From: Capillimicrobium parvum
GTDB taxonomy: Bacteria; Actinomycetota; Thermoleophilia; Solirubrobacterales; Solirubrobacteraceae
Direction: 5' to 3'
NCBI RefSeq assembly: GCF_021172045.1
Contig: NZ_CP087164.1
Location: 5,270,001 to 5,334,000, forward strand
DNA: 64,000 nt
Part shown: positions 18,490-62,150 of the stretch, piece after piece
Layout of the letters: the number at the start of each line of letters is the position of its first letter
How positions within the stretch are numbered: the first letter of the stretch is position 1
Notes under the pieces: model-generated
Database searches by the model: none
Told to the model about the DNA's origin: nothing
What the model saw: only the letters and a program-made list of their open reading frames with translations
Position numbers and translations under genes: made by a program

Positions 18490-18588
18490 ATGATCGATGC
18501 CACGCCGTCGTGCTCGGATGTGCGCGCATCCGTGGATGCCGGGCGCGGCGCGTACAGCCGAGTGCGAGGGTCGTGGCATCGATCATCT
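18488..18588. repeat. 17-bp perfect inverted repeat spanning a convergent intergenic region
   Basis: The left arm (18488-18504) begins at the last two bases of the glycosyltransferase stop codon; the right arm (18572-18588) overlaps the flippase stop codon. Arms are exact complements (core ATGATCGATGCCAC/GTGGCATCGATCAT). The 67-base spacer has further short stems (GGATG/CATCC, CTCGG/CCGAG). It fits a bidirectional terminator or a MITE-sized element; no transposase is nearby. Confidence 0.75.
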
Positions 18589-23270: not shown

Positions 23271-24128
23271 TCAGCCGTGGTGCAGTGACAGCGGCCCGCT
23301 GTCGTAGCGCATCAGCACGTACGGCTTGCCGTTGCCGGTGAGCAGCGGATCGAGGCCGACCCGCACCTGCGCGTGGCCGGCGTGCAACCAGGAGGCGACC
23401 TGCTCGCGCGGCACCTGCACGCGGTGCAGGCCGCGGGCGGGGAAGGTGAGCGTCTGCTCGAAGAGCACCGGCTCGCCGCCGCCGGCGGCGTGGACGCGCA
23501 CGGTCGTCGAGCGCTCCTGCGGTGCGTGGTTGATGGCGACGACCTGCAGCTCGGTGAGGCGCTCGGCCTCGATGAGCCGCCACGAGCGCCACGGCTCGCC
23601 GATCCCCGTCGCCCGCGTGAGGCTCCACGTCACGAGCTTCGGCGCGCCGTACATCACTCCGGCGAGCGTGTCGATCGAGTGCACGTACATGTACGACTGG
23701 CTGTCGTCGTAGTACGCCATCCAGTACGGCGTGTTGATCTGGATCTGGTCGGGGTCGGGCAGGTCGCCGAACTGTCGGCGCACCTCGGCGTCGGGCTCGA
23801 GGTCGATCGCGACGATCCCCTCGGGCACGCCGTCCGCGCCGAGCTCGGCGAGCAGCTCGCGCACCTCGAGAAACAGGGAGCCGAAGCGCGGGATCGACCG
23901 GTCCAGCTGTCCCAGCCCCCGGCCGGAGGCGTCGTAGGCCTCGATGTGCGCGATCGCCGGACGGTCGACCTGCGGCCAGAACGTCGACCAGAAGTTCTGC
24001 AGGTGGATCCGCGAGTGCAGGCCGTCGGACTCGATGAAGTAGTGCGCGTACGGGATGCGCGGCGCCTTGCCGCGGCGCGCTCCGCGCTCGCGCAGCGCGG
24101 TGCCGACGCGCTCGCCGAGCGCGGTCAT
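23271..24128 (-). CDS. Uncharacterised protein, last gene of the 15-gene operon
   Basis: A 285-residue soluble protein not recognised as any known family. The first part has PYAHYFIESDGLHSRIHLQNF (quoted as IESDGLHSRIHLQNFW) followed by DRPAIAHIEAYDASG and an acidic, likely beta-rich region. The middle has INTPYWMAYYDDSQSYMYVH and the C-terminal 90 residues form regular beta strands (TTVRVHAAGG, VLFEQTLTFPARGLHRVQVP), suggesting a beta-sandwich. No signal peptide or membrane span. It overlaps the preceding unknown gene by ATGA, and the operon context implies a step in making or attaching the surface sugar. Function open. Confidence 0.75.
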   Translation of the reverse strand: MTALGERVGTALRERGARRGKAPRIPYAHYFIESDGLHSRIHLQNFWSTFWPQVDRPAIAHIEAYDASGRGLGQLDRSIPRFGSLFLEVRELLAELGADGVPEGIVAIDLEPDAEVRRQFGDLPDPDQIQINTPYWMAYYDDSQSYMYVHSIDTLAGVMYGAPKLVTWSLTRATGIGEPWRSWRLIEAERLTELQVVAINHAPQERSTTVRVHAAGGGEPVLFEQTLTFPARGLHRVQVPREQVASWLHAGHAQVRVGLDPLLTGNGKPYVLMRYDSGPLSLHHG

Positions 24129-25075
24129 GGCGCCGCCGCCCCTGCGGGCTGCGGCGCGGGCACGTCGGCGAAGAACTCGGCCTCCAGGCGCGCGTTGGCG
24201 GCGTGGCGGGGCTCGCCGCCCCACGTCGAGAGGTAGAACTTCGGCGGGAGCGTGTGGTCGCAGGCGATGGCGCCGGTGACCTTGTTGCGCGTCAGCGAGA
24301 TCGGCACGAGCGTCCCGTTGCGCGAGAGGCCGAGGAACATCCCGAGGCCGCCGCCGGCGCGGTACTCCTCGAGCTTGCCGGCATGCTCGAGCGCCTCGGT
24401 CGCGCTGACCAGGCGGAACGTGAACGGCGGCACCTCGACGTGCGAGCGCGCCACCCGCGACCCGTCCGCGCCGAGGATCCAGTAGTCCATCCGCACGGGG
24501 TCGGCGTAGCCGAAGCTCGTCGACACGTTCATCAGCAGGAACAGCGTGTCGACCGGGTCGGAGACGATGACCTTCGGCGCCTGGCAGACGGTCGAGCGCG
24601 TGGAGGACAGGCGCGTGTCGTTCAGCGGGCCGGTCTGGTAGGCGACGCCGGTCACGACGCCCTTCGGGCGCTGGTAGTACTCGATGAAGTCGTCGGAGGC
24701 GAGCACGTGGGCCTGCATCGCCGCGATGCCGGCGTCGACCGCGGGCCGGCCCGCCATCGCCTCGGGGACGACGTGGACGACGGCGAGGACGTCGCCGGCG
24801 GGCACGTCGGGCAGCGTGCCGAGCGGGCCGTCGGCGTCGAACTTGCGGATCTCGCCAGGCTCGAGGCGGTCGAACGCCTCGGTCGTGCCGATGTGGCGCC
24901 CGTCCGCGGCGTCCCAGGCGCTCATCGAGACGAGCATCGGGGTGGCGTGGGGACCGGAGGACACGCCGTTGTTGACCGTCGCGCGGGTCCCGTAGTCGAG
25001 CTCGCGCAGCATCGCGAAGATGCACGGACGGAAGAAGCGCGGGTCCAGGCCCTCGATCGTGGACGCGGGCGCCAT
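24125..25075 (-). CDS. Uncharacterised protein, operon partner of the 23271-24128 gene
   Basis: A 316-residue soluble protein with no family I recognise. It begins MAPASTIEGLDPRFFRPCIF and contains DYGTRATVNNGVSSGPHATP, VIVSDPVDTLFLLMNVSTSFGY, MDYWILGADGSRVARSHVEV and a final LPPKFYLSTWGGEPRHAANA. The alternation of short strands suggests a beta-sandwich like its neighbour, and both have a 'P(K)(V/L)-S/T' strand before a hydrophobic core, but I see no convincing alignment. Cys residues are few. It lies three bases after the methyltransferase gene and is coupled (ATGA) to the next gene; the pair is probably functionally linked. Confidence 0.75.
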   Translation of the reverse strand: MAPASTIEGLDPRFFRPCIFAMLRELDYGTRATVNNGVSSGPHATPMLVSMSAWDAADGRHIGTTEAFDRLEPGEIRKFDADGPLGTLPDVPAGDVLAVVHVVPEAMAGRPAVDAGIAAMQAHVLASDDFIEYYQRPKGVVTGVAYQTGPLNDTRLSSTRSTVCQAPKVIVSDPVDTLFLLMNVSTSFGYADPVRMDYWILGADGSRVARSHVEVPPFTFRLVSATEALEHAGKLEEYRAGGGLGMFLGLSRNGTLVPISLTRNKVTGAIACDHTLPPKFYLSTWGGEPRHAANARLEAEFFADVPAPQPAGAAAP

Positions 25076-25078
25076 GCG

Positions 25079-25879
25079 TCAGGAGGGTATCGCCGCGGGT
25101 TCGAGGAACGCCCAGAGCGTGTACTTCGCCGACGGCTCCTGCAGCCGGGCCAGCTCGGCCACCTCGAACCCGGCACGGGCGGCCAGCAGGCACAGCGAGG
25201 CGGGCGAGAACGCGTAGAGGTGCTCGAGGAAGAACTCCTCGCGGCCGGGGCCGCCGGCAGCCGCCCGCTCGCCGTCGGGCACCTCGACGTACACCCGGCC
25301 TCCCTCCGCCAGGAACGCGCGCGTGCCGGCGAGCATCGCCACCGGATCGGCGACGTGCTCGAGCACCTTGTTCAGCGACACGAGGTCGAACCGGCCCAGC
25401 CCATCGGCCTCGAAGAAGTCCCCCGCGACGGCATCGACGCCCGCCACCGTCCGCGCGTGCTCCGCCGCCCGCGGGTCGGGGTCGAGCGCCGTGCAGCGCC
25501 AGCCGAGCGCGCGCATCCGCGCCGGGAAGACGGCGAGCCCGGAGCCGACGTCCAGCAGCGTGCCCGGCGCGGCGAAGCGCGCGTGCACCCGCCGCGCGCG
25601 CGCCGCGTTGTCCGAGCGCTCCTCGGGCAGGCCCATGATCCGGTCATAGGTCGCGTGCATCGCATCGCCGTAGGTGGCGTCGACGTACTCGCCGGAATAC
25701 AGCCGCGAGAGGTCGAGGTCCATCCGCGCCACCCACAGCCCGCAGCGCGGGCAGCGCAGGAACGCGCGGTGGTAGCGCTGGCCCGCTTCGAGCGGGAACG
25801 GCGTCTCGCCCTCCGGCGGCGCGTCGTACGCGAAGCCGGGGCCCAGCGCCGCGTCGCACAGCGCGCAGCGGTCGCTCAC
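25079..25879 (-). CDS. Zinc-ribbon SAM-dependent methyltransferase
   Basis: A 266-residue protein. The N-terminus is a zinc ribbon (CALCDAAL ... RCPRCGLW, Cys-X2-Cys twice, residues about 5-47), common in methyltransferases of polysaccharide loci. The catalytic part has TLLDVGSGLAVFPARMRALG (about 106-125), CTALDPDPRAAEHAR, FDLVSLNKVLEHVADPVAML and EGGRVYVEVPDGE. Likely O- or N-methylation of the locus sugar. It overlaps neuB-like gene by four bases, so it is coupled to nonulosonate-type synthesis. Confidence 0.85.
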   Translation of the reverse strand: MSDRCALCDAALGPGFAYDAPPEGETPFPLEAGQRYHRAFLRCPRCGLWVARMDLDLSRLYSGEYVDATYGDAMHATYDRIMGLPEERSDNAARARRVHARFAAPGTLLDVGSGLAVFPARMRALGWRCTALDPDPRAAEHARTVAGVDAVAGDFFEADGLGRFDLVSLNKVLEHVADPVAMLAGTRAFLAEGGRVYVEVPDGERAAAGGPGREEFFLEHLYAFSPASLCLLAARAGFEVAELARLQEPSAKYTLWAFLEPAAIPS

Positions 25880-26871
25880 TCCACGTCCTCGACGCGGATC
25901 GTCTCGCCGAACGCCACGGCGCGCCGCAGGGCCCGGCCGAGCAGGAGGTCCTCCTGTCCGGGCGCCAGCCCGTCGCGCGGGCGCAGCCAGGTGAGGTCCC
26001 CGGGACCCAGCACATGGCCGGCCTCGAACTCGCCCGCGGCGACGATCGAGCGCCGCACCGCCGCGCGCAGCGCTTCCTCCTCGGGCTGCGGCGCCTTGCC
26101 CGGCTCGCCCACGAGCGTGCGCACCTCGTCGACGCGGCGCACGAGCTCGGCCAGCTCCCCGGGATCGACCGACAGCTGATGGTCGCGGAAGTCGGAGTAG
26201 TCGTGGCGCAGCGTGACGTGCTTCTCGAGGATCTCGGCGCCGAGCGCGGCCGCCGCGACGCAGGCGTCGACGCCGAGGGTGTGGTCGGAGTAGCCGACGG
26301 TCCCGCCGATCGCTTCACGCAGCGTCGCCATCGCCGCCAGGTTCACCGACGCAGGCGGCGTCGGATACGCCGTCACGCAGTGCAGGACCGCCACCTCGCC
26401 CGAGCCGGCCGCCTCCAGCGCCGCCTTCGCCCGGCGGACGCCCTCGATGTCCACGAGCCCCGCCGACAGCACGACCGGCTTGCCGGTCGCGCCGATGCGC
26501 TCGAGCAGCGGCCAGAAGTCGTTGTCGCCCGACGCGACCTTGTAGGCGTCGACGAGCGGCTCGAGCACGTCGACCGAGCCGAGGTCGAGCGGCGATGAGA
26601 GAAACAGCAGCCCGCGCGATCGCGCCCGCTCGGCCAGCCCCCGCACCTCGTCCGCGCTGAGCTGGAAGCCGCCGTAGCGCGCAAGTCGGTCGGGCTCGGA
26701 CGGGCGGACGAACCAGCGCACGTCGAAGGTCTGCAGCTTCACCGCGCCGGCGCCGGCGTCGGCCGCCGCATCGAGGATGTGCGCCGCCACCTCGGGGTCG
26801 CCCTCGTGGTTGTTGCCGATCTCGGCGATGACCAGGGGCCGGACCGCGGTGTCGCAGGCGCCGATCCTCAC
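25876..26871 (-). CDS. NeuB-family nonulosonic acid synthase (SpsE/PseI/LegI-like)
   Basis: A 331-residue sialic-acid-synthase family enzyme, starting at GTG ((M)RIGACDTAVRPLVIAEIGNN). It has the NeuB TIM barrel (EIGNNHEGDPEVAAHILDAA; AGAVKLQTFD; FLSSPLDLGSVDVLE; YKVASGDNDFWPLLERIG; PVVLSAGLVDIEG; LHCVTAYPTP; VGYSDHTLGVDACVAAAALG; EKHVTLRHDYSDFRDHQLSV) and a C-terminal SAF/antifreeze-like domain (ARRS...EFEAGHVLGPGDLTWLRP). It condenses phosphoenolpyruvate with an N-acyl hexosamine derivative. Typical length is about 345. It is coupled by overlaps to the acetyltransferase and methyltransferase genes. Which six-carbon sugar it uses cannot be read from sequence. Confidence 0.92.
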   Translation of the reverse strand: MRIGACDTAVRPLVIAEIGNNHEGDPEVAAHILDAAADAGAGAVKLQTFDVRWFVRPSEPDRLARYGGFQLSADEVRGLAERARSRGLLFLSSPLDLGSVDVLEPLVDAYKVASGDNDFWPLLERIGATGKPVVLSAGLVDIEGVRRAKAALEAAGSGEVAVLHCVTAYPTPPASVNLAAMATLREAIGGTVGYSDHTLGVDACVAAAALGAEILEKHVTLRHDYSDFRDHQLSVDPGELAELVRRVDEVRTLVGEPGKAPQPEEEALRAAVRRSIVAAGEFEAGHVLGPGDLTWLRPRDGLAPGQEDLLLGRALRRAVAFGETIRVEDVE

Positions 26872-27572
26872 GCGACGTGGCGGTGGAGGTTGTAGACGGT
26901 GGCCGTGGTCCCGAACCCGAGGCGCTCGTAGAAGCGGATCGAGCCGACGTTGGCCGCCTGCGTCCCGACGCTCACTGCGCCCGGCACCATCCCCAGCAGC
27001 CCGCGCACGAGCGTCCGGCCGACGCCCGCGCCCTGGTGCTCGGGCGCGACGCCGATCAGGTCGATCACCGCGTCGTCGCCGCGCTTCACGAGCACGAGGA
27101 AGCCGACCGCCACCCCGTCGCGGCGCTGCACGAGCACGCCGTCGCCGCGCGCGCCCGCGAGCGCGTTGGCCACCCAGTCGCGCTTGATCGCGGTGGCGAC
27201 CGCGTCGGGGATGTCCGGGTCGAGATGGAACCGCGTGCGCGTGAACGCCGTCTCGGCGATGCGCGCGAGCGCCTCGGCATCGCCCGGCTCGGCCCACTCG
27301 AGCCTCAGCGGCTGCGCCGTGCCGGTGCGCGCCAGCGTCACGCCGACGTCGACCACGCGCATCCCGGCGTCGCAGAGCGCCTGCAGCTGCGCGACGCGCT
27401 CGGTGGCCACGCGCGCCAGATAGGTCCCGGGCCGGGCCTGCGCCAGGTCGCCCGGCGCGTCGACCCACCACACCGGGTGGCCGAAGCGCTCGGACAGCCA
27501 GGCGTCAGCGCGCAGAGAGGACCCCGTCGGAGACGAGGTCGCGGTACCAGGCGACGTAGCGATCGAGACCAT
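26868..27572 (-). CDS. GNAT-family N-acetyltransferase (SpsD/PseH-like position)
   Basis: Up to 234 residues. The C-terminal GNAT domain has the acetyl-CoA loop LIGVAPEHQGAGVGRTLVRG (Q/R-X-X-G-X-G/A near residue 175) and NVGSIRFYERLGFGTT. The N-terminal half (WLSERFGHPVWWVDAPGDLAQ, DVGVTLARTG) resembles WecD/SpsD-type sugar amine acetyltransferases. It probably acetylates the amino sugar made by the adjacent aminotransferase before NeuB. Start uncertain: the ATG at 27572 would overlap the epimerase gene by 68 bases, while a CTG at 27515 overlaps by only 11; the shorter form has better family resemblance. Confidence 0.85.
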   Translation of the reverse strand: MVSIATSPGTATSSPTGSSLRADAWLSERFGHPVWWVDAPGDLAQARPGTYLARVATERVAQLQALCDAGMRVVDVGVTLARTGTAQPLRLEWAEPGDAEALARIAETAFTRTRFHLDPDIPDAVATAIKRDWVANALAGARGDGVLVQRRDGVAVGFLVLVKRGDDAVIDLIGVAPEHQGAGVGRTLVRGLLGMVPGAVSVGTQAANVGSIRFYERLGFGTTATVYNLHRHVA

Positions 27573-28533
27573 CCTCCAGCTTCGTGCGAGGGTCGTAGCC
27601 GATCGCCTCGCGGGCCTTGTCGATCTTCAGCGTGCCGCGGAACGGCCGCAGCGCGTCGCGCTCGACGTACTCGACCTCCACCTCGGGGAAGTGCTCCTGG
27701 ACGATCTCGATGAGCTCGCGCAGGGTCCGCGCCCCGCCCGTGGTGATGTTGAACGCCTCGTTGCGCCCGGCCGGGTGCTCGATCGCCCGGACGGTGCCCT
27801 CGATGACGTCCTCGACCCACGAGAAGTCGATGCGCTCCTCGCCGAGGCCGTCGACGCGCAGCTTGTCGCCGACGAGCGCGTTCTCGATGAACACCTGGCT
27901 CACGCGCCGGCTCACGCACCCCGGGCCGTACAGGGCCGACGGGCGGATGATCGTGTAGTCGAGGTCGAAGACCTGCTTGTAGGCGATGCACATACGTTCG
28001 CCCGCCAGCTTCAGCGCGCCGTAGATGCCGATCGGGTCCAGCGGATGCGTCTCGTCGACCTCGGGCGTCAGGAAGTTTCCGTAGACCATCGAGGAGGAGA
28101 AGTAGACGAAGTGCTCGGCCTTGTCGCGCGAGTAGTCCAGCGCGTTCTCGAGGGTGCGCAGCGAGTGGTCGAACGTCGACATCGGGTCCTTGTTGGACCG
28201 GTTGGCGTGCGCCACCGCGGCGAGCTGCACGACCGTCTGCGGCTCGATCTCGCCGAGGATCCGCGAGAGCTTGTCGTACTCCCGGGCGTCCTGGACGTGC
28301 AGCGGCACCCCGGCCGCCTCCAGCTTGCGCAGCCGCTGGTTGATGATCTTCAGGTACAGGTCGCGGTTCGGGTTCTGCGACGGGAGCGCCAGGTAGGACA
28401 GGAGGTTGTTGACCTCCAGGCCGTCGATGACGTGGACGTCGGCGCCGCGCTCCTTGAGCGTCAGCGCGAGATGGTGGCCGATGAAGCCGGCGCCGCCGAC
28501 CAGGGCGATCCGGCGCCCGCTGAGGTCAGGCAC
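27505..28533 (-). CDS. NAD-dependent epimerase/dehydratase of the nonulosonate-type operon
   Basis: A 342-residue extended SDR from a GTG start ((M)PDLSGRRIALVGGAGFIGHH). GGAGFIGHHLAL binds NAD; VYFSSSMVYGN (about residues 139-149) and IYGALKLAGERM (about 165) supply Ser and Tyr-X3-Lys. RPSALYGPGCVSRRVSQVF and DFSWVEDVIEGTVRAI fit nucleotide-sugar epimerases/4,6-dehydratases. It may be the dehydratase that starts the pathway (LegB-like) or a later C4/C5 epimerase. It overlaps the aminotransferase gene by eight bases. Confidence 0.85.
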   Translation of the reverse strand: MPDLSGRRIALVGGAGFIGHHLALTLKERGADVHVIDGLEVNNLLSYLALPSQNPNRDLYLKIINQRLRKLEAAGVPLHVQDAREYDKLSRILGEIEPQTVVQLAAVAHANRSNKDPMSTFDHSLRTLENALDYSRDKAEHFVYFSSSMVYGNFLTPEVDETHPLDPIGIYGALKLAGERMCIAYKQVFDLDYTIIRPSALYGPGCVSRRVSQVFIENALVGDKLRVDGLGEERIDFSWVEDVIEGTVRAIEHPAGRNEAFNITTGGARTLRELIEIVQEHFPEVEVEYVERDALRPFRGTLKIDKAREAIGYDPRTKLEDGLDRYVAWYRDLVSDGVLSAR

Positions 28534-29677
28534 GGGCCACCAACCGATCCACGACCTGCCCCACCGTCTCCACGATCCGCTGCACGTCTTCCTCCTCGAT
28601 ATGGGGGCCGACCGGGAAGGCGATCGACTCGTACGAGATCCGGGCGGCCACCGGGCATGAACGCTCAGGATGGCCGTAGGTCTCGCGGTAGTACTTCGTG
28701 TCCGGCAGCGGCTTGGGGTAGTAGACGCTCGTCCCGACCCCCTCGCCCTTCAGCGTCTCGATGAGCTCCTCGCGGCGCTCGGCGAGCGGCGCGTCGAGCA
28801 GCGCGACGAGGCAGTAGTGGCTGGCCCCGGGGCCGTCCGAGTCGATGACGGTCAGGCCGTCGACGCCGCCGAGGCCCGCGGCCAGCGACCGGAAGTTGCG
28901 CGCGCGCTGCTCGAGGAAGCCGGGCAGCCGCTTGAGCTGCTCGACGCCCATCGCGGCGCCGATCTCGCCCATGCGGTAGTTCAGGCCGACGTACTCGATC
29001 TCGTAGGCGGCCGTGTGACGGCGGTCGGCGAGGACGCTCTTGTCGATGCCGAACGCCCGCTGCTTGGAGACGCGGTCGGCGATGTCCGCGCGGGTGGTGA
29101 TGACCATCCCGCCCTCGCCGGTCGTGATGTGCTTGACCGGATAGAAGGAGAAGCAGCCGACGTCGCCGTGCAGGCCGACGTGGGTGCCGTCGATGCGGGC
29201 GCCGAGGGCGATCGCGCAGTCCTCGACGACGAACAGGTCGTGGCGGCGGGCGACCTCGAGCACACGGCCCATGTCGACCGGCAGGCCGAGGTAGTGGACG
29301 ACCGAGACCGCCCGGGTGCGCTCGGTGACCGCCGCCGCCAGCAGGTCGAGGTCGACGTTGCCGGTGCGCGGGTCGGCGTCGACGAAGACGGGCGTGGCGC
29401 CACAGATCTCGACCGCGTGGGCCATCGCGACGTGCGTCTGGGCCGGGACGAGCACCTCGTCGCCGGGCCCGATGCCGCAGGCCAGGTAGGCCAGGTGCAG
29501 CGAGGCCATGCAGGTCGCGGTGGCGATGGCGTGCGGCGCGCCGGTGAACTCGGCGAAGGCCTGCTCGAAGGCCTTGACCCGGGGGCCGTGGGTGAGGGTC
29601 GTGCCCTCGAGCACCTCGGCGACGGCGCGACGCTCCTCCTCGCCCACCATGGGCTTTCCGAAGGGGATCGTCGTCAT
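28526..29677 (-). CDS. DegT/DnrJ/EryC1-family sugar aminotransferase (SpsC/PseC-like)
   Basis: A 383-residue PLP enzyme starting MTTIPFGKPMVGEEERRAVA. Hallmarks are LTHGPRVKAFEQAFAEFTGA, the N-terminal PLP-phosphate region ATATCMASLHLAYLACG, VVEDCAIALGARIDG (Asp that contacts the pyridine N) and the lysine in FSFYPVKHITTGEGG (about residue 183). ERSCPVAARISYESIAFPVG is the conserved C-terminal motif. It should transaminate a 4-keto sugar nucleotide to the 4-amino sugar, providing the substrate for the N-acetyltransferase and NeuB-family enzyme. Overlaps the upstream oxidoreductase gene by ATGA. Confidence 0.92.
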   Translation of the reverse strand: MTTIPFGKPMVGEEERRAVAEVLEGTTLTHGPRVKAFEQAFAEFTGAPHAIATATCMASLHLAYLACGIGPGDEVLVPAQTHVAMAHAVEICGATPVFVDADPRTGNVDLDLLAAAVTERTRAVSVVHYLGLPVDMGRVLEVARRHDLFVVEDCAIALGARIDGTHVGLHGDVGCFSFYPVKHITTGEGGMVITTRADIADRVSKQRAFGIDKSVLADRRHTAAYEIEYVGLNYRMGEIGAAMGVEQLKRLPGFLEQRARNFRSLAAGLGGVDGLTVIDSDGPGASHYCLVALLDAPLAERREELIETLKGEGVGTSVYYPKPLPDTKYYRETYGHPERSCPVAARISYESIAFPVGPHIEEEDVQRIVETVGQVVDRLVARA

Positions 29678-30681
29678 TGAGCCGTGAAGGGTAGCTCGAC
29701 GGGCGTCCCGCTCCGGACCGCGTGCTCGATCGCGAACAGCACGTCCATCGTCGCGAACACGTCGTCCTCGGTGACCACCGCGTCCCCGCCGGTGAGGATC
29801 GCCTCGACGAACGACGCGATGAGGTCGCCCTTCAGCACGCCGGGATACGGCGCATCGATGGTCTCGGCCCGCGGGTCGTCGTCGCGGCCGAGCCACAGCG
29901 TGCCCGCCTCGCGGCCGTTGACGAACGTCCCCTCGGTGCCGAAGAGCTTGAGCGCGTGGAAGTGCGGCTGGACGCAGGCGAAGTTCGCGGTGACCTTGAG
30001 GATCGTGCCGCTGGCGCACTCGAGCACGGCGATGACGAAGTCGTCGTAGCGGAACCGCGTGCCCTCGGTGGCGATCCGGTTTCCGTGCGCGGTGACGCGG
30101 ACGACGCGCTCGCCGGTCAGCCAGAGCAGCAGGTCGACGACGTGCACGGCGCCGCCGAGGACGACCGAGTAGTACGGCAGCCGCCCGCGCCAGCCCTCGG
30201 TGAGCTTCCACAGCCGGCCGTACTCGTAGTCGGCCTCGGCGTAGTAGATCCGCCCGAGCCGGTCAGCCGCGAGCGCGTCGCGGACCGCGAGGAAGCGCGG
30301 GGAGAGCCGGAGAGGCAGGTTCGACGACATCCGCAGCCGCGGATGCGCGGCGCGCAGCTCGTGCAGCTGCCGCGCCTCGCCGGGGTCCAGGCACAGCGGC
30401 TTCTCAACGAAGACGTGCTTGCCGTTGCGCAGCGCGCGGCTGACCTGGGCGAAGTGGGCGTCGTCGTAGGAGGCGATCGAGACGACGTCGATGCCTGGGT
30501 CGTCGAGCAGCGCGCCGGGGTCGGGCTCGAGGCGCAGGCCCGGGTGCCGGGCGCCGACCTCCTCGAGCCGGACGGGGTCGACGTCGCTGACCGCCACGAC
30601 CTCGCAGCCGGCGTGCGCGCGGTAGCCGGCGATGTGCGCCTCGCCGACCCCGAGCCCGATGACCGCGGCGCGCAGCCTCAT
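29674..30681 (-). CDS. Gfo/Idh/MocA-family oxidoreductase
   Basis: A 335-residue NAD(P)-dependent sugar oxidoreductase. The Rossmann start is RLRAAVIGLGVGEAHIAGYR, and the family's EKPLCLDPGEA motif (Lys near residue 92) and the GGAVHVVDLLLWLTGE helix (His near 175) are present. It probably oxidises or reduces a ring carbon of a nucleotide or free sugar in the pathway. Gfo/Idh enzymes recur in nonulosonic-acid and spore-coat polysaccharide operons. It is coupled by overlaps on both sides. Which carbon is modified is unknown. Confidence 0.9.
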   Translation of the reverse strand: MRLRAAVIGLGVGEAHIAGYRAHAGCEVVAVSDVDPVRLEEVGARHPGLRLEPDPGALLDDPGIDVVSIASYDDAHFAQVSRALRNGKHVFVEKPLCLDPGEARQLHELRAAHPRLRMSSNLPLRLSPRFLAVRDALAADRLGRIYYAEADYEYGRLWKLTEGWRGRLPYYSVVLGGAVHVVDLLLWLTGERVVRVTAHGNRIATEGTRFRYDDFVIAVLECASGTILKVTANFACVQPHFHALKLFGTEGTFVNGREAGTLWLGRDDDPRAETIDAPYPGVLKGDLIASFVEAILTGGDAVVTEDDVFATMDVLFAIEHAVRSGTPVELPFTAQ

Positions 30682-31367
30682 GCGGCGAGGACCTCGTGGG
30701 CGAGCGCGGCGACCTCGGCGCTCGAGTAGTCCCAGTGCGGGCGGTCCATCCGCGCCAGCACGGCCTCGATGAGCTCGGCGTCCGCTTCGGTGTCGAGCGA
30801 GACGTCGAGGCGGCCCTCGTCGGCGGGCTGGGTGAAGTTGCGGATCCGCCAGTCGTCGGGGTGCGTGTAGAAGTAGCGGGTGACGTGCTCGAGCTCGTCG
30901 GGCTCGGTCATCCGCGCGTAGGCGCTGCGGAACGCGGCGACGTCGACGACCTCGAGCGAGTGCCCGGAGGGATACGTACTGCGCGGGAAGACGTTCGTGA
31001 CGACGTCGGCGCCTCCCTCGGCGAACAGCGTCGCGCCGTGGTCGACGAGCGCGTGGTCGATCAGCGGCGAGTCGCCGGTGATGCGCACGAACGCGTCGAG
31101 GCCGCGGGCGTCGGCGGCGAGCAGGTAGCGCTGCGCGACGTCCTCGAGCGGCCCACGGAAGCACGCGACGCCCTGGGCGGCGCAGAATCCGGCGATGGCG
31201 TCGTCCTCGGGCTGGACGGAGGTCGCCAGCGCGAAGCCGTCGATGCGCTCGCAGCGCGCCAGGCGCTCGAAGATGTACTGCAGCGCCGGGCGCCCGTGCA
31301 GCGGCCGCAGGACCTTCCCGGGCAGCCGGCGCGAGGACATGCGGGCCTGAACGACCGCTTCGATCAT
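30678..31367 (-). CDS. SpsF-type cytidylyltransferase
   Basis: A 229-residue nucleotidyltransferase starting MIEAVVQARMSSRRLPGKVL, the CTP/CMP-sugar pyrophosphorylase signature (Q/A-R-X-S-S-X-R-L-P-G-K). It continues with DDAIAGFCAAQGVACFRGPL, VRITGDSPLIDHALVDH and a C-terminal LDVSLDTEADAELIE. SpsF proteins activate 3-deoxy-sugar acids as CMP-sugars. This completes an SpsC-SpsD-SpsE-SpsF set with the genes further down the operon. The ATG overlaps the AsnB-like gene stop (ATGA). Confidence 0.9.
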   Translation of the reverse strand: MIEAVVQARMSSRRLPGKVLRPLHGRPALQYIFERLARCERIDGFALATSVQPEDDAIAGFCAAQGVACFRGPLEDVAQRYLLAADARGLDAFVRITGDSPLIDHALVDHGATLFAEGGADVVTNVFPRSTYPSGHSLEVVDVAAFRSAYARMTEPDELEHVTRYFYTHPDDWRIRNFTQPADEGRLDVSLDTEADAELIEAVLARMDRPHWDYSSAEVAALAHEVLAA

Positions 31368-33151
31368 GGCTGCGGAAGGGCGTCGAGCCAGCGCAGCCAG
31401 ACGTCGAGGTTGACGAGCTGCCACAGGAACATCATGTGGTTCTCGGCCGGCCGGCCCGAGCGGACGATCTCGTCGTGCTCGTCGATCAGGCGGCGCACCT
31501 CGGTGAGGTCGTAGATGCCGCGGTCGAACGCCGCGCTGCCCACGACGTCGTGCAGCAGGTCGCGGCCCGGCCCCGAGAACCAGTTGTCCGCGGGCGCGTT
31601 CCAGCCCGTCTTCTTGATGCGCGTCCGCGTCTCCTCGGGCAGCAGGCCGCGCGTCGCCCGGCGCAGCAGCTGCTTCGTCACGCCCTCGTGGATCTTCAGC
31701 TCGCCCGGCACGCGGAACATGAGCTCGGCGAGGCGGTGGTCGAAGAACGGGTCGCAGTTGCGCAGCCCGGCGGCGTGGGTCTGGCGGTCCTCGGCGCGCA
31801 GGCAGCACGGCGCGGTCTCGCGGAACAGGTCCTGGTAGGTGCGGTTGCGCAGGTAGGACGCGAACACCCGGTCCATCACCGGGTCGAAGGTCCGCAGGTC
31901 GTAGAAGCCCGGCGCAAGGGCGGCGTCGTAACGCTCGATGCGGGCCCGGTCGGGCAGGATGCGGCCCGGCGTGTGCAGGTCCACGGTTCGCGCCAGGCCC
32001 GCCTCCATCGCGTCCCGGCTCTTGCGGAAGATCGGGTGGTCGTGGTGGCGCACCCACGCCTCGACCTCCTCGCGCAGCTGCGCCTCGCGGCCCGCGGCCC
32101 GCAGGTCGGCGAAGTTGAAGAAGAAGTACTCGTACTCCCCGGCGTTGAGCTCGTCGCCGCCCAGGCCGCCGAACAGCGTGTCGAAGCCGGCCTCGGCCAC
32201 GACGCCGCACAGCACGTGGTGCGACAGCCACGTCGCGGTGGCGACCGGCTCGTCGTGCGCGGCGACCATCTGCTCGACGAGGCCGACCACGTCGGGGCGG
32301 TTGCCGATCGGCACCTGGTGCCACCCGGCCACGGCGAGGTCGAGCATCGAGCGGATCTCGTCGGACTCGTCGTACTCGGCGTGCGCGTAGACCGTCGAGT
32401 ACGCGTGCTGCCGCTCGCCGCTGAGCGAGACCGCGCTCGCCAGGACCGAGGAGGAGTCCATGCCGCCCGACAGCGTGAACGCGGGCCGGCCGGCCGCGGC
32501 CAGCCGGATCCCGACCGCGTCGAGCAGCAGCTCGCGGTAGCGCTCGGCGAGCTCGTCCGGCGCGCCGTCGAGGTCGGGCGCCTCCTCGAGCGCCCACCAC
32601 GCCTCGCGCAGCGGCGGCTTGCCGGGGGCCACCCGCAGGAGGTGGCCGGCCGGAAGCTGGTCGATCGCCTCGTACGGCGACGCGGTGCGGTCGTTGTCGA
32701 ACGTGCGGTAGTGCGAGGCGGCGAAGCGGGCGACGAACGAGCGGCGCGGCGCGCGCGGGACGCCGGGCAGCGTGAGGAGCGCTCTCGGCCGGGACGCGAA
32801 CGCGCTGCCGTCGGCGAGGTGGAACAGCGGGCGCACACCGAAGCGGTCGCGCCCGAGCCACAGCGTGTCGCCGTCGCGCAGCGCGATCGCGCCGTCGAAG
32901 TTCAGGCGCCGCAGCGCCTCCGCGAAGCCATGCTCGCGGTACAGCCGCGCGACGAGGGCCGCGGCCGGCTCCCCGGCCCGCACCGCCGGCGCGTAGACCG
33001 TCCCGTCGACGACGACCGCCAGGCCGTCCTCGCGGTGGGCGTTCGCCGGGCCGGCGCCGACCCAGCCCAGCTCGCCCTCGACCCACGCCTCGCCCGGGCC
33101 GCTCTCGGCCAGCATCGCGCGCACCCGCGGCCCGCCCGCGATGCGGCTCAC
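31364..33151 (-). CDS. AsnB-like amidotransferase lacking the catalytic Cys2
   Basis: A 595-residue protein from a GTG start, coupled by GTGA to the upstream methyltransferase gene. Residues 1 to about 200 fold like a class II glutaminase (RRLNFDGAIALRDGDTLWLG; RDRFGVRPLFHLADGS) but the N-terminus is (M)SRIAGGPRVRAML with Ser, not Cys, at position 2 and none of the MCGI motif. The C-terminal synthetase domain has FTLSGGMDSSSVLASAV (PP-loop, about residue 230) and FGGLGGDELNAGEYEYFFF. It may use free ammonia, cyclise like beta-lactam synthetases, or use Ser2. Its placement between methyltransferase and cytidylyltransferase genes suggests amide formation on the sugar acid. Confidence 0.82.
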   Translation of the reverse strand: MSRIAGGPRVRAMLAESGPGEAWVEGELGWVGAGPANAHREDGLAVVVDGTVYAPAVRAGEPAAALVARLYREHGFAEALRRLNFDGAIALRDGDTLWLGRDRFGVRPLFHLADGSAFASRPRALLTLPGVPRAPRRSFVARFAASHYRTFDNDRTASPYEAIDQLPAGHLLRVAPGKPPLREAWWALEEAPDLDGAPDELAERYRELLLDAVGIRLAAAGRPAFTLSGGMDSSSVLASAVSLSGERQHAYSTVYAHAEYDESDEIRSMLDLAVAGWHQVPIGNRPDVVGLVEQMVAAHDEPVATATWLSHHVLCGVVAEAGFDTLFGGLGGDELNAGEYEYFFFNFADLRAAGREAQLREEVEAWVRHHDHPIFRKSRDAMEAGLARTVDLHTPGRILPDRARIERYDAALAPGFYDLRTFDPVMDRVFASYLRNRTYQDLFRETAPCCLRAEDRQTHAAGLRNCDPFFDHRLAELMFRVPGELKIHEGVTKQLLRRATRGLLPEETRTRIKKTGWNAPADNWFSGPGRDLLHDVVGSAAFDRGIYDLTEVRRLIDEHDEIVRSGRPAENHMMFLWQLVNLDVWLRWLDALPQP

Positions 33152-33834
33152 GAGCGACGCTCCCCGAGCAGGATCCGCCACTGGTGCGGGATGTCGACGA
33201 CCATCTCGGTGCCGTCGCCGGTGCGCTCGTCGCGGATGCGGGTGACCGCGAAGCCCTCGGCCTCCATGAGCCCGATCACCTCGTCGGCGGGATAGGTGTT
33301 GTGGTAGACGCGGATGTGGCGCTTGCCCTCGTCGAGGTACGGGTCGGGCGTGAAGCGGACCACGAGCTCGTCGCCGAGCGACTCGCGCAGCAGGATGCGC
33401 TTGCGCGCCGCGCGAAGCAGGCGCTCGAGCGGCGCGGCGTAGTGCGGGCTGTTCGTCAGCACGTTGAAGCACAGGACGTTGTCGTAGGAGCCCTCCGCCA
33501 GGTCCTCGATCGCGCCGAGCATGAAGCGCTCGGGCGCGAGGCCGGCCCGCGGCGCGACCTCGGCGCGTGCGAGGTCGACGAGCTCGGGCGTGTGGTCGAG
33601 CCCCCACCACTCGGGGATGAAGCCGCGCCGCCTGAACGACCACAGGTAGGAGCCGCCGCCGCAGCCCGCGTCGAGCAGGCTCTCGCCGGGCCCGATCAGC
33701 GGGCCGAGCACCGCCGCCGCCTGGGCGGCGCACGTCATCTCCTCGGCCTCGTCGCGCGCGCGCCTCCGGTAGAGGTCGAAGGTCGCGCGGTCGTTGGCCC
33801 AGGGATTGGCGTCCGGGTTGGCCGCCCCGGGCAC
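33148..33834 (-). CDS. Class I SAM-dependent methyltransferase
   Basis: A 228-residue protein. The GTG at 33834 overlaps the previous stop as TAGTG, giving (M)PGAANPDANPWANDRATFDL. Motif I is SLLDAGCGGGSYLWSFRRRG (about residues 49-68), followed by WGLDHTPELVDLARAEV, YDNVLCFNVLTNSPHYA and a C-terminal IRVYHNTYPADEVIGLMEAE. An ORF extension to 33930 is not supported. Substrate unknown; probably the sugar handled by the neighbouring AsnB-like protein. Confidence 0.83.
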   Translation of the reverse strand: MPGAANPDANPWANDRATFDLYRRRARDEAEEMTCAAQAAAVLGPLIGPGESLLDAGCGGGSYLWSFRRRGFIPEWWGLDHTPELVDLARAEVAPRAGLAPERFMLGAIEDLAEGSYDNVLCFNVLTNSPHYAAPLERLLRAARKRILLRESLGDELVVRFTPDPYLDEGKRHIRVYHNTYPADEVIGLMEAEGFAVTRIRDERTGDGTEMVVDIPHQWRILLGERRS

Positions 33835-34583
33835 TACTTCACCGCGTAGACGATGAGCATCGACTGCAGGTACGCGTCGTAGCCGCGCTTGCCGGCCTCG
33901 CTCGCCGGGATCTCGTACCGCGCCAGGCACGGCTCGACGAGGGAGAAGCCGTCGAACAGGCGGTGGATCTCGTCCTTCGTGAAGAAGTGCGAGAGCCCGA
34001 TGTTCGACAGGTAGAAGTTCGAGCCGCCCTCCTCGAGCTGCACCGTGCCCGGGTCATCGGCGAGCTGCTCGTGCTCGTGGCGACCGAAGACGGTGTGGCC
34101 CTGCTCGAGCATGTGGCCGACGAACACCCCGCCCGGGCGCAGGAGCCGGCCCACCTCGGCGAACGCGCGCTCGCGATCGCCGCGCGGCAGGTGCTGGAAG
34201 ACGCACGACTCGAGCAGGCCGTCCATCGACCCGTCCGCCCACGGCACGTCGGCCACGGAGCCCTCGACGAGCGCGCCGACCTGACCGGCGAAGCCGTGGC
34301 GGTCGAGGTTCTGCCGGGCCAGGTCGAGCGCCGTCGGCGCGATGTCGACGCCGGACACCGTCATGCCCTTCTCGGCCAGCCACACCAGGTTCGGGCCGGC
34401 GCCGCAGCCGAGCTCGGCGAAGTGCAGGTCCGCGATGCGATCGGCCTCGACACGGTCGCGCAGGTAGTAGGACACGGTGCGCACCAGCGCCTCGACCGGC
34501 GCGGTGTTGTAGGCGCCGCGGGCGACCTGCTCCTTGAAGGAGGTCTCCCAGGTCTCGCGCATCGCCTGATCGTTCGTGCTCAT
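33834..34583 (-). CDS. Class I SAM-dependent methyltransferase
   Basis: A 249-residue protein starting MSTNDQAMRETWETSFKEQV. Motif I is FAELGCGAGPNLVWLAEKGM (about residues 54-73), then VSGVDIAPTALDLARQNLDR, MDGLLESCVFQHLPRGDRER and LRPGGVFVGHMLEQGHTVFG. It is a second, different methyltransferase directly before the 33148-33834 one. Nine bases separate it from the upstream small gene. Role in the glycan pathway inferred from position. Confidence 0.85.
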   Translation of the reverse strand: MSTNDQAMRETWETSFKEQVARGAYNTAPVEALVRTVSYYLRDRVEADRIADLHFAELGCGAGPNLVWLAEKGMTVSGVDIAPTALDLARQNLDRHGFAGQVGALVEGSVADVPWADGSMDGLLESCVFQHLPRGDRERAFAEVGRLLRPGGVFVGHMLEQGHTVFGRHEHEQLADDPGTVQLEEGGSNFYLSNIGLSHFFTKDEIHRLFDGFSLVEPCLARYEIPASEAGKRGYDAYLQSMLIVYAVK

Positions 34584-34592
34584 AAGCGTTCC

Positions 34593-34982
34593 TCAGTCAA
34601 GCAGAGCGGCCAGGCGCTCCACGGCATCGTCGGTGTCCAGCCACGCCACCACGCGCATCCCCTCGGCCGCCAGGTACTCGGCGAACGCGGCGTCCCCGCC
34701 CTCCTCGACCGCGAGCAGGTACATCCGCGGGCGCTCGCCGTCCCGGCGCGGGACGCCCATGCACAGCACGGCGCGCAGGCCGTGCTCGGCCAGGCGCTGG
34801 TTCAGCGAGGGCGTCAGGTAATAGCCCCACGCCTTGCGCGTCACGTCGGCCTGCGAGCCGGCCGGGCCGCGGAGGGTCACGACCTCGTCGGCCTCGAGCG
34901 CGACGTCGGCGACGTGGCGCAGCGTGCCGCCGCGGGTCCCGACCCCGAACTCGCGGGGCGGCTCGATCGGTTCGATCCTCAC
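34593..34982 (-). CDS. Small uncharacterised protein between two AsnB-type genes
   Basis: A 129-residue soluble protein from a GTG start that overlaps the AsnB stop by GTGA. It reads RIEPIEPPREFGVGTRGGTL, then VADVALEADEVVTLRG, a DVTRKAWGYYLTPSLNQRLA motif, VLCMGVPRRDGERPRMYLLA and EYLAAEGMRVVAWLDTDDAV. The compact alpha/beta pattern suggests a single small domain. I do not recognise the family. Its fixed position directly after an AsnB gene suggests an accessory or substrate-carrier role; this is inference. Confidence 0.75.
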   Translation of the reverse strand: MRIEPIEPPREFGVGTRGGTLRHVADVALEADEVVTLRGPAGSQADVTRKAWGYYLTPSLNQRLAEHGLRAVLCMGVPRRDGERPRMYLLAVEEGGDAAFAEYLAAEGMRVVAWLDTDDAVERLAALLD

Positions 34983-36817
34983 GTCCCGTGCTCCTCGAGG
35001 AAGAGCTTCACGCAGAGGAAGTTGAACAGGAACTTGCTCTTGGAGTTCGGCAGCCACTCCTGCGTGAGCAGCTCGTGCACAGCGTCGCGGCGCACGAGCT
35101 CCCACACCGGCGAGTCGGCGCCGAGCTCCGCCTGCACCGCCGGGTCGTCGACGTCGAGGAAGTCGAGCACCGGCGCGTTGAAGCCGACCTTGCGGCGGTT
35201 GTCGAGGATCTTGTCGGGCACGATGCCCCGCATCGCGTCGCGCAGCACCGCCTTGGCCATGCCGCGCTGGACGAGGTGGCGGGTCGGCACCGAGCACGCC
35301 CACTCGTAGAGGTCGCGGTCCAGGAACGGCGAGCGGTTCTCGATCGAGAACGACATGGCGTTGAGGTCGTCCTCGTGGAGGATCACCGGGACCGACTCGT
35401 GGAAGAGCTCGTTGAGCATGCGGTTGCGCAGAAGGCGGTCGCCGGCGAGGTCGGCTTCGGTGAAGGGCTCGGTGAACGGGCGGGTGAGCATCGCCGAGAA
35501 CTCGCCGGCGTCCAGGTAGACGTGCTCGCGCCGCGCCGGGTCCTCGACGAGGTAGAACGGGTCCTGCAGGTACGGGTTGCGCACGATCGGGGCGATGTGC
35601 TCGCGCCAGTTGGCGACCGAGCGCTCGAACAGCTCGGCGTCGGGGTGCACGTCGCGCAGGTAGGCGAGGTGGTGGTCGTAGTAGCCCGAGTAGAGCTCGT
35701 CGGCCGCCGTCCCGCTGATCGACACGCGGTAGCCGTGCTCGTGGATCGACTGCATGAGCAGCCAGTGCGCGTAGTAGGTGATCGTGTACAGCGGCGCGTC
35801 GTGCCGGTGGACGAGCTCGCGCAGGCGCGGCAGGAAGCGGTCGGTGTCGACGGGGATCGCGGTGTGGCGCACCTGCAGCTGCGCGACCGCGTGGTCGACC
35901 ATGTCCTGCTCCTCGTAGCGCTCGTCGGAGTTGACGATCGTGAAGCCGTGGACGTCGTAGTCGAAGACGCGCTTGGCGATCGCGATGAGCGAGAGGGAGT
36001 CGATGCCGCCGCTCATGCAGAACGCCAGCGGCGTGTCGGCGCGCAGGCGCAGCTCGACGGAGCGGATGAGGCGCTCCCGGGTCCCCGCCACCGCCTCGTC
36101 GTAGCTCATCTCGGCACGCTCGTCGGGCGGCGCGGCGTCCCAGTAGCGGCGTTCGCGCTCACCGCCCGACCCCAGCTCGAGCACGATGCCCGGCCGGAGC
36201 TCCTCGACGCCTTCGAAGAACGTGGCGCGCGTCTTGTAGAGCGCCTTGTAGCCGTTGACGAGATACCGGCGCAGGTGCTCACGGTCCGGCTTCAACGGGC
36301 GGCCGGACAGAGCGGCGAGCAGCTTGACCTCGCTGCCGAAGTAGAGGCCGCCGTCGCCGTCGCGCAACAGGTACAGGGGCTTCTCGCCGAAGCGGTCGCG
36401 GCACAGCGCCACGACGCCGGAGGACTCGTCGTACGTGGCGAACGCCCACATCCCCTCGCAGCCGTCCAGCCCCTCGAAGCCGTGGCGGACGAGCTGGCGC
36501 AGCAGCACCTCGGTGTCGGACGTGGTCGCGAACGTCTCCCCGTGCGCCTCGAGCCCCTTGCGCACCTCCACGTAGTTGTAGAGCTCGCCGTTGTAGCTCA
36601 GCCATGTGCCGCCGACCCGGTAGGGCTGGTTGGAGCGCTCGTCGAAGTCGATGATCGTCAGGCGGGCGTGCAGCAGCGCGACGTGGCGGCCGTCGGCGGT
36701 CTGGAACGTGCGCGCGGTGCGGTCGTCGGGGCCGCGATGGCGCATGAGGCCCAGGGCCGCGTCGATGCGCTCGCGGTCGAGCGGCGCGCGCCCGACGTAG
36801 CCGGCGATCCCGCACAT
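34979..36817 (-). CDS. Asparagine synthase family amidotransferase (intact glutaminase)
   Basis: A 612-residue AsnB-type protein: MCGIAGYVGRAPLDRERIDA with Cys2, LMRHRGPDDR, LLHARLTIIDFDERSNQP, YNGELYNYVEV, then the synthetase PP-loop LAFCMSGGIDSLSLIAIAKR (about residue 260) and SGTAADELYSGYYDHHLAYL. The C-terminus ENRSPFLDRDLYEWACSVP and MRGIVPDKILDNRRKVGFNA are family-typical. It starts one base after the N-acetyl sugar amidotransferase gene, so it may supply or share ammonia with it, or amidate the sugar carboxylate itself. Asparagine as product is not assumed. Confidence 0.9.
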   Translation of the reverse strand: MCGIAGYVGRAPLDRERIDAALGLMRHRGPDDRTARTFQTADGRHVALLHARLTIIDFDERSNQPYRVGGTWLSYNGELYNYVEVRKGLEAHGETFATTSDTEVLLRQLVRHGFEGLDGCEGMWAFATYDESSGVVALCRDRFGEKPLYLLRDGDGGLYFGSEVKLLAALSGRPLKPDREHLRRYLVNGYKALYKTRATFFEGVEELRPGIVLELGSGGERERRYWDAAPPDERAEMSYDEAVAGTRERLIRSVELRLRADTPLAFCMSGGIDSLSLIAIAKRVFDYDVHGFTIVNSDERYEEQDMVDHAVAQLQVRHTAIPVDTDRFLPRLRELVHRHDAPLYTITYYAHWLLMQSIHEHGYRVSISGTAADELYSGYYDHHLAYLRDVHPDAELFERSVANWREHIAPIVRNPYLQDPFYLVEDPARREHVYLDAGEFSAMLTRPFTEPFTEADLAGDRLLRNRMLNELFHESVPVILHEDDLNAMSFSIENRSPFLDRDLYEWACSVPTRHLVQRGMAKAVLRDAMRGIVPDKILDNRRKVGFNAPVLDFLDVDDPAVQAELGADSPVWELVRRDAVHELLTQEWLPNSKSKFLFNFLCVKLFLEEHGT

Positions 36818-36818
36818 C

Positions 36819-37937
36819 TCAGGACCAGGGCCAGTCGTCGACGAGGAAGCCCTCGATCGTCCAGACGCCGTCGTCGCGCCGGGTCCAGACGTCGGGGTTG
36901 CGCCAGCGCTCGGCTCGGGCGAAGAAGTCGTCGGTGCCGATCCCGACGTAGGCCGAGAACTTGGCGATGTCGTCGTAGGGCGTCTCGTCGCCGAGCTCCC
37001 TGAGGCGCGCGATCGCCTCGTCGCGGGTGAGGCGCCCGTTGCGGATCTCCAGCGAGAGGTTGTCGAAGGAGCGCGTGAACCCGAACTTCGGCCACTTGAG
37101 GTGGTGGTGGATCGAGATGAAGTCGTCGTCGATGTCGGCGTGCGCGTAGACGCCGGTCCTCGGGCCCTCGTCGCGGGCGCGGAAGCCGTGCTCGGCGGCG
37201 ACGCGGGCGGTCATCTCGGGGTCCCAGCGCAGGTACTCGCCGAGGAACACCGCCTCGATGCCCTTGGCCTCGAGCTCGGCGTCGGTGGGGCCGAAGTACG
37301 GGGCGAGGTCGCGCTCGGTCAGCTCGTCCGACACCCAGTCGGCGGCCGTCGTGCCGTGGACGGCGCCGTAGCGGCGCACCCACTCGGCGTCGAGCCGGTG
37401 CGTGGCCGCCGTGTCGCCCACGTACTCGGCCGCCGAGTTCTCGCCCCACACGACGAGCGGCACGTCGTAGCGCGCCGCGACGGTCAGCGGGACGTTGAAC
37501 AGGGCCAGGTGCATCGGGATCGCGGTCGTGCCGAAGCGGTCCAGGCTGGCGAGCAGGAAGCGGCGCTCGACCAGCGGGCTGCAGGTGAAGTCGACGTGGT
37601 CGACGCCGAGGGAGATCAGGTTGTCGAGGTTCTGCTGGCCGAGCGGCGTGCGCCCGGGCGTGCGCCACGTCACGGCCAGGGGATGCAGCCCGTGCTCGAG
37701 GCAGGTGACGACCTGCCAGGTCGAGTCCTTGCCGCCGGAGACCGGGATCACGCAGTCCCAGCGGCGGTCCAGCGCACGGGTCCGCTCGACGAGCTCGCCG
37801 AACGCGGCGGCGCGCGCCGCCCAGTCGACCGCCTCGTCGCGGGTGCCGTGCGCACGGCAGGCGGAGCACACGCCCGCGGCATCGAGCACGATGCCGGGGC
37901 GCGTGTCGGGCAGGACACAGCGCGTGCACCAGTTCAC
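36819..37937 (-). CDS. N-acetyl sugar amidotransferase (WbpG/PseA family)
   Basis: A 372-residue protein from a GTG: (M)NWCTRCVLPDTRPGIVLDA with a zinc site of two Cys-X2-Cys pairs (WCTRCV near residues 3-6 and CSACRAHG near 24-27), then the ATP-pyrophosphatase loop VIPVSGGKDSTWQVVT (about residues 63-78). The C-terminal half includes YVGDTAATHRLDAEW, FLGEYLRWDPEMTARVAAEH and HHHLKWPKFGFTRSFDNLSL. Relatives make acetamidino groups on N-acetyl sugars. The ammonia source is normally HisH/HisF-like proteins, which are absent here; an AsnB gene follows after one base. It is the first gene of the 15-gene operon, with a TACGCT box nine bases upstream. Confidence 0.88.
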   Translation of the reverse strand: MNWCTRCVLPDTRPGIVLDAAGVCSACRAHGTRDEAVDWAARAAAFGELVERTRALDRRWDCVIPVSGGKDSTWQVVTCLEHGLHPLAVTWRTPGRTPLGQQNLDNLISLGVDHVDFTCSPLVERRFLLASLDRFGTTAIPMHLALFNVPLTVAARYDVPLVVWGENSAAEYVGDTAATHRLDAEWVRRYGAVHGTTAADWVSDELTERDLAPYFGPTDAELEAKGIEAVFLGEYLRWDPEMTARVAAEHGFRARDEGPRTGVYAHADIDDDFISIHHHLKWPKFGFTRSFDNLSLEIRNGRLTRDEAIARLRELGDETPYDDIAKFSAYVGIGTDDFFARAERWRNPDVWTRRDDGVWTIEGFLVDDWPWS

Positions 37938-62137: not shown

Positions 62138-62143
62138 TATGCT
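62138..62143 (+). promoter_or_regulatory. -10 box (TATGCT) of the asparagine synthase gene
   Basis: TATGCT ends seven bases before the ATG at 62151; leaderless pattern. Confidence 0.5.
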
Positions 62144-62150
62144 CGGCGGC

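Follow-up and report, generated by a model that had tools for sequence, protein, structure and literature searches.

The well-described routes to nonulosonic acids (NulOs) lead to neuraminic (Neu), legionaminic (Leg) or pseudaminic (Pse) acid; Kdn is a related, simpler case. Surveys infer the product from the type of NeuB synthase. Among the closest described systems is the sps legionaminic pathway of Bacillus subtilis (SpsM-C-D-G-E-F), which employs DegT, GNAT, NeuB-family and SpsF-type enzymes for a surface sugar and in which both SpsG, a PseG-like protein, and the dehydratase SpsM are required for Leg (PMC7439481). In Campylobacter, Leg and Pse are decorated by a WbuX/PseA-family amidotransferase (the PseA/PtmG amidinase) and the N-methyltransferase PtmH. 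Similar enzymes are encoded by fifteen minus-strand genes, g01 to g15, that run from position 37937 to 23271 of a 64,000-nucleotide stretch of the Capillimicrobium parvum genome (NZ_CP087164.1, positions 5,270,001 to 5,334,000; hereafter the window). Compared with the B. subtilis pathway, the conserved cassette within this operon has no counterpart of SpsG or SpsM, adds a Gfo/Idh oxidoreductase, a short-chain dehydrogenase/reductase (SDR), AsnB1 and WbuX, and contains a NeuB that branches apart from NmNeuB, PseI and Leg references (SpsE itself being outside our tree). Compared with Campylobacter, it lacks PseB/LegB and PseG/LegG, and its WbuX is tied to AsnB1 and a small orphan protein, not to HisH/HisF-type partners. 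The cassette core appears to be previously undescribed and probably builds an unusual sialic-acid-like surface sugar; no description of it was found in the literature searched, which comprised open-licence papers only and does not prove novelty. With moderate confidence, we favor interpretation of the operon as a fourth type of cytidine monophosphate (CMP)-nonulosonate pathway, accompanied by decorating enzymes.

Open reading frames, codon-position GC bias and hidden Markov model (HMM) matches together bear out the preliminary description of fifteen genes separated by gaps of at most nine bases. The GC bias tracks each of the fifteen reading frames in turn, and neighboring genes either overlap by 1 to 8 bases or are separated by 1, 3 or 9 bases, the start of the GNAT gene excepted. 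This sole uncertain start has three candidates: ATG at 27572, which overlaps the preceding gene by about 65 bases; CTG at 27515, which overlaps it by about 10; and GTG at 27473, which leaves a 31-base gap but cuts off conserved residues. The families originally assigned were recovered by HMM searches (WbuX, two AsnB proteins, three SAM methyltransferases, SpsF, Gfo/Idh, DegT, SDR, GNAT and NeuB), and the three proteins listed as unknown (g03, g14 and g15) indeed match no Pfam family. The core block begins with an SpsF-type CTP transferase, or CMP-sugar synthetase (g07, 30678-31367; PF02348, 77.9 bits, cut-off 22.6), and continues with a Gfo/Idh/MocA oxidoreductase dependent on nicotinamide adenine dinucleotide (NAD) (g08, 29674-30681; PF01408/PF22725), a DegT pyridoxal phosphate aminotransferase (g09, 28526-29677; PF01041, 359 bits), an extended, NAD-dependent SDR (g10, 27505-28533; PF01370, with the motif SSSMVYG), a GNAT N-acyltransferase (g11, 26868-27572, start uncertain; PF00583) and a NeuB-family synthase that condenses sugars with phosphoenolpyruvate (PEP) (g12, 25876-26871; PF03102 plus an SAF domain).

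Far from being actinobacterial, as first described, the cassette keeps its gene order across ten or more phyla, its proteins being roughly 30-60% identical. A search with NeuB led to plasmid p5 of Azospirillum brasilense (NZ_CP032350.1; locus L010), where 12-13 of the 15 genes lie in one run at 35-60% identity, MT1 giving a weak match only, and a two-sequence NeuB alignment searched against a collection covering some 85,000 species yielded 33 loci. The order SpsF-Gfo-DegT-SDR-GNAT-NeuB is identical in the window and about 12 of these loci, in which AsnB1 nearly always, and WbuX, g03 and MT3 often, come after the core; in the window, a WbuX-AsnB1-g03 block precedes the core instead. Hosts include Actinomycetota, Elusimicrobiota, Pseudomonadota, Bacteroidota, Nitrospirota, Cyanobacteriota, Omnitrophota, Handelsmanbacteria, Chloroflexota and Fibrobacterota. 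Over 28 loci, several of them ended early by contig ends, AsnB1 was counted in 24, SDR in 21, DegT in 20, SpsF and GNAT in 19 each, Gfo in 18, WbuX in 16, g03 in 15 and MT3 in 13; the Fibrobacteres locus (L044) has MT1, MT2 and AsnB2 as well. A search of viral contigs returned a single, irrelevant NeuB, and plasmid searches with g15 and g03 found no relatives beyond Azospirillum p5. In that plasmid the cassette Gfo and DegT genes are frame-broken (split matches, L010:6675-8981), reflecting either decay or sequencing errors. Upstream of SpsF, three loci (L016, L021, L025) carry a gene resembling Gfo/Idh together with one for a putative C-methyltransferase (PF08421/PF08484, checked in L021), and three others have a gene of the uridine diphosphate (UDP)-sugar 6-dehydrogenase family immediately before it (L026:3941-5206, L035:4105-5445 and L028:3944-5311; Pfam-tested in L026 and L035).

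That the cassette NeuB is a sugar-acid synthase, as initially proposed, is upheld by its PF03102 score (207 bits, cut-off 22.1), its SAF domain (28.4, cut-off 21), an E value of 1e-38 to NmNeuB and conserved active-site residues: the metal-binding pair His197 and His218, together with Lys45, Lys111 and Arg297, are invariant. A reading as DAHP synthase was rejected (E value 9e-6). At the position where Gly marks Neu and Leg enzymes and Phe marks Pse enzymes (PMC7371886), the protein has Gly115, as in the Neu/Leg type. Even so, the gene set is not a Pse, Leg, Neu or B. subtilis Sps pathway, because the family tests for all four failed: PseC scored 298 against 423.5 and PseI 210 against 340, with no PseG; LegB scored 83 against 475 and LegC 221 against 420, with no NeuC/LegG above cut-off; the Neu5Ac equivalog TIGR03569 scored 268.6 bits against 399.65; and the PseG model that matches in B. 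subtilis does not match in the window genome. DegT, SDR and NeuB thus all fall below the Pse, Leg and Neu equivalog cut-offs, and the earlier equation of the core with the SpsC-SpsD-SpsE-SpsF set of a known pathway does not hold, given these scores, the missing SpsG and SpsM counterparts and the separate position of NeuB. In maximum-likelihood trees, 28 cassette-type NeuBs split from NmNeuB, PseI and NeuBs of Leg/Neu context, with support of 100/100 when PDB references were left out and 99 by the Shimodaira-Hasegawa-like approximate likelihood-ratio test when they were included. In three members (L018, L023, L032) the SDR/DegT block was not seen in the DNA covered.

The clade is also distinctive in its active site, where NmNeuB Glu134 is replaced by an invariant Asp within the region KVASGDN, the acceptor-side loop reads FRDH, and acceptor-side residues differ from those of NmNeuB. 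Such differences would suit an enzyme that yields a ulosonic acid of other than nine carbons (for example, an octulosonic acid from a pentose) or a uronic-based one, with AsnB1 amidating the uronic carboxylate, and the UDP-sugar dehydrogenase-like genes before SpsF in L026, L028 and L035 might be a clue that a uronic acid serves as substrate in those lineages. However, dehydrogenase genes are absent from most cassettes, and the invariant Arg297 is the equivalent of NmNeuB Arg314, which binds the acetamido group; we consider a product of this kind improbable.

The preliminary description remarked on the absence of a PseG/NeuC-type enzyme, and none is present in the operon; moreover, PseG has no match across the whole 5.95-Mb, single-contig window genome, and no NeuC/LegG there exceeds cut-off, its two PF02350 proteins being non-hydrolysing WecB, above cut-off. 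Rather than a gap of one locus, this lack is a trait of the whole pathway type. NeuC/PseG probes match in reference NeuB loci (L011, L054-L056, L058, L059 and L037, the last of which branches with the reference loci) and in none of the cassette loci, save one weak partial match in L016. Genome-wide, NeuC exceeds cut-off in the genomes of L016, L019, L021 and L044, and PseG occurs in that of L033; in all five, a second NeuB is encoded no more than about 4 kb from the enzyme. Neither was found in a genome-wide search of the seven genomes that have the cassette NeuB as their only strong NeuB (the window genome and those of L013, L014, L024, L026, L028 and L031), a negative weakened for some by the incompleteness of metagenome-assembled genomes (MAGs), although the window genome is one contig. 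A recognizable dehydratase is missing from the cassette as well. The SDR is 45-61% identical in 21 loci, and its motif has invariant Ser-Ser-Ser followed by Met in all but two orthologues, those having Thr. Whereas 4,6-dehydratases carry an acid/base pair (DE, DK or SE) after the catalytic Ser/Thr (PMC8987622, Table 1), all 22 of 22 orthologues have S-M or S-T at this site and no such pair.

Several points weigh against a fourth pathway type. One gene of PF02719, the UDP-GlcNAc dehydratase type, is present at 134044 in the window genome, and the precursor enzyme could be encoded elsewhere in the genome; NeuB relatives were gathered by the clade's own peptide patterns, so that the clade is partly built in (its correlation with gene content is not); and the comparison genomes are mostly MAGs of uncertain completeness. 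Some cassettes also miss genes (L016 has no DegT, L038 no Gfo, and L036 is minimal), which implies that not every core enzyme is obligatory. The PF02719 protein, and the location of B. subtilis spsM apart from the sps operon (PMC7439481), would suit a conventional pathway of Leg, Pse or Sps type in which the genes for the dehydratase and hydrolase lie at another place in the genome or have diverged beyond recognition. We nevertheless think this unlikely: PF02719 proteins are absent from three of the seven cassette-only genomes (Leptolyngbya, L026; L014; L031), none of the seven has PseG or NeuC, either enzyme elsewhere sits with its own NeuB, the SDR, although it has an operon position of its own, is devoid of dehydratase residues, and the cassette NeuB clade is separate.

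The relatives of the remaining core enzymes bear on when the sugar is aminated. DegT, in which Lys182 is invariant, has ArnB and perosamine synthase as its nearest solved relatives, and GNAT is nearest to WecD/RffC. In L013 (Actinomycetota; L013:9075-10001) and L029 (Omnitrophota; L029:5106-6035), GNAT is replaced in its 0.9-kb slot between SDR and NeuB by formyltransferases that are 45% identical to each other and nearest to that of ArnA. Occupation of the same slot by two unrelated N-acyl enzymes is good evidence that an amine is acylated there, on the simplest assumption probably that produced by DegT. The cassette in these respects recalls the ArnB-ArnA route to UDP-4-amino-4-deoxy-L-arabinose, but it continues with NeuB and SpsF, and the NCBIfam comparison (21 bits against 777) does not place its SDR with the ArnA-type decarboxylases. 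Among PDB matches of the SDR, the second best is Pal of the Bacillus thuringiensis Pse pathway (PDB 6bwl), whose motif STCMVYD likewise has Met where dehydratases have Glu or Lys; the similarity is low, and nothing in the cassette corresponds to Pen, the dehydratase that partners Pal. We treat this likeness as a lead only. Additional formyltransferase-like genes occur in L017 and L038, and polysaccharide-deacetylase-like genes in L017, L038 and L044.

The chief competing scheme places amination after condensation: NeuB would act first, condensing PEP with a sugar that is either free or phosphorylated, like the synthases for Kdn and Neu5Ac, after which Gfo/Idh or SDR would oxidize a hydroxyl of the ulosonate, DegT would aminate it and GNAT would acylate it. 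Oxidation followed by amination is how KdnB and KdnA yield 8-amino-Kdo, and this theme of oxidation and DegT-family amination around a ulosonic acid is shared with the cassette, although KdnB belongs to a different dehydrogenase family. The scheme would explain why neither a nucleotide-sugar hydrolase nor a dehydratase is needed, and it agrees with the presence of KdnA (PDB 5k8b) in the profile match list of DegT and of the Gfo/Idh enzyme YjhC, which is associated with sialic acid metabolism, in the match list of Gfo. Yet DegT is nearer to ArnB and perosamine synthase than to KdnA, and these two enzymes, like WecD/RffC and ArnA, all act on nucleotide-linked 4-amino sugars; GlcNAc 2-epimerase is encoded too irregularly to be a general supplier of free ManNAc and was rejected as such. 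Amination of the ulosonate therefore seems to us a rather doubtful, if serious, proposition.

The fourth-type interpretation draws on the observed gene content and synteny, the NeuB clade, the lack of PseG/NeuC and of dehydratase residues, the exchange of acetyl- for formyltransferase and the conserved active-site residues; every substrate, the step order, the nine-carbon backbone and the positions that are decorated we infer. In this proposal, the SDR would make a keto sugar with no 4,6-dehydration, and the ArnB/PseC-like DegT would aminate it, the probable position being C-4 of an acetamido-hexose still linked to its nucleotide; the new amine would then be N-acylated by GNAT or, in some phyla, by the formyltransferase. 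The sugar would be released from its nucleotide by a step other than PseG or NeuC, NeuB would join the free aldose with PEP, and SpsF would form the CMP derivative. Gfo/Idh, in which Lys94 (of EKP) and His180 are invariant and Gly176 stands where Asp is usual, is a speculative candidate for the release step and might remove the nucleotide from a UDP-amino-sugar by NAD-dependent oxidation, elimination and hydration, a cycle known for redox glycosidases. We regard this substitute for PseG/NeuC as a long shot; if true, it would represent a type of NulO pathway that runs without a classical nucleotide-sugar hydrolase. AsnB1 would amidate a carboxylate or provide ammonia, WbuX with g03 would convert an acetamido group to an amidine, MT1-MT3 would methylate, and a transferase encoded among the neighboring surface-glycan genes would use the CMP-sugar.

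The decorating enzymes include WbuX (g01, 36819-37937), a WbuX/PseA-like N-acetyl sugar amidotransferase (TIGR03573, 299.7 bits, cut-off 203.2) that is 49-62% identical in 15-16 cassette loci and is expected to convert an acetamido group to an acetamidino group. The 129-residue orphan g03 (34593-34982; motif D...KxWGxYxTPSxNxRL) occurs in 15 loci, nearly always together with the AsnB-type WbuX, and is a probable accessory of the WbuX step; its AlphaFold model, with a predicted local distance difference test (pLDDT) score of 87, has no fold match in the PDB. WbuX of the g01 type is usually found with g03 and without HisH/HisF (L016 and L027 have no g03; L034 has both sets), and g03 is missing from loci with HisH/HisF-like genes only (L014, L028, L036). 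The cassette-core protein AsnB1 (g02, 34979-36817; PF00733 plus a glutamine amidotransferase (GATase) domain; TIGR01536, 361 bits) has the features of a glutamine-dependent amidotransferase, with Cys2, R52/N76/E78/D101 and SGGxDS invariant in 22 orthologues; its presence in L013 and L033, where g01-type WbuX is absent, argues that it has a role of its own. AsnB2 (g06, 31364-33151; PF00733, 168 bits, GATase domain partial only) has orthologues at 55% identity in L010 and L044, where it is conserved together with the methyltransferases MT1 (g04, 33834-34583; PF08241; 54% identical in L044, weak in L010) and MT2 (g05, 33148-33834; PF13489; 44-62% in both). In the window and L010, Ser replaces the N-terminal nucleophile Cys of AsnB2, so that the glutaminase half of the protein is probably inactive. 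The cassette methyltransferase MT3 (g13, 25079-25879; PF13489), with a Cys-rich, zinc-finger-like N-terminal part, is 43-57% identical in 13 loci. Of the proposal that the operon makes an amidated, methylated nonulosonic acid, what stands is that its genes fit a CMP-nonulosonate with amidine and methyl decorations; the chemistry itself we still infer.

A deep NeuB clade with fixed partners in at least ten phyla, and lacking the customary hydrolase, may signify a widespread class of sialic-acid-like sugars that has been misassigned, and it points to a new route for freeing the precursor from its nucleotide or for aminating the ulosonate itself. The cassette is small, occurs in culturable strains (for example, Leptolyngbya sp. 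PCC 6406 and Rhabdaerophilum calidifontis, which has a second neuB besides) and is amenable to in vitro tests, for which the acetyl-/formyltransferase swap and the amidotransferase-linked 129-residue orphan offer direct experimental handles.

The last two genes of the operon, encoding proteins of 316 (g14, 24125-25075) and 285 residues (g15, 23271-24128), were rejected as cassette members, being absent from all 28 loci. They are a separate lineage-specific pair that recurs within the family at different polysaccharide loci, in two genomes (L006 and L007) near Gfo/Idh and a flippase-like gene; g14 is 58% identical in two other genomes from this family, beside a flippase-like gene. A weak co-linear hhalign match suggests that g14 and g15 are perhaps distant paralogues of one another; single-sequence structure prediction for g15 gave a pLDDT of 51. 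The gene adjoining the pair in L007 is a homologue, at 50% identity, of the plus-strand gene at 37975-39267 in the window, a divergent neighbor of the operon that encodes a CDP-glycerol glycerophosphotransferase-like glycosyltransferase (PF04464, barely at cut-off). Next to it, also divergent on the plus strand, lies a gene of the Capsule_synth (KpsC/KpsS) family (39264-40871; PF05159, 25.8 bits, cut-off 20), whose product is a candidate CMP-ulosonate transferase. A Wzx-type flippase-like protein is encoded on the minus strand at 40840-42156 (weak NCBIfam matches) and a second at 18583-20106 (PF13440, 68 bits). Surface-polysaccharide functions, comprising these flippase-like proteins, glycosyltransferases, a deacetylase and additional AsnB proteins, are found among the remaining genes of the window; these include a WbmS-like polysaccharide deacetylase and two AsnB family proteins beyond those of the operon (8764-9492, 4774-6654 and 62139-63992).

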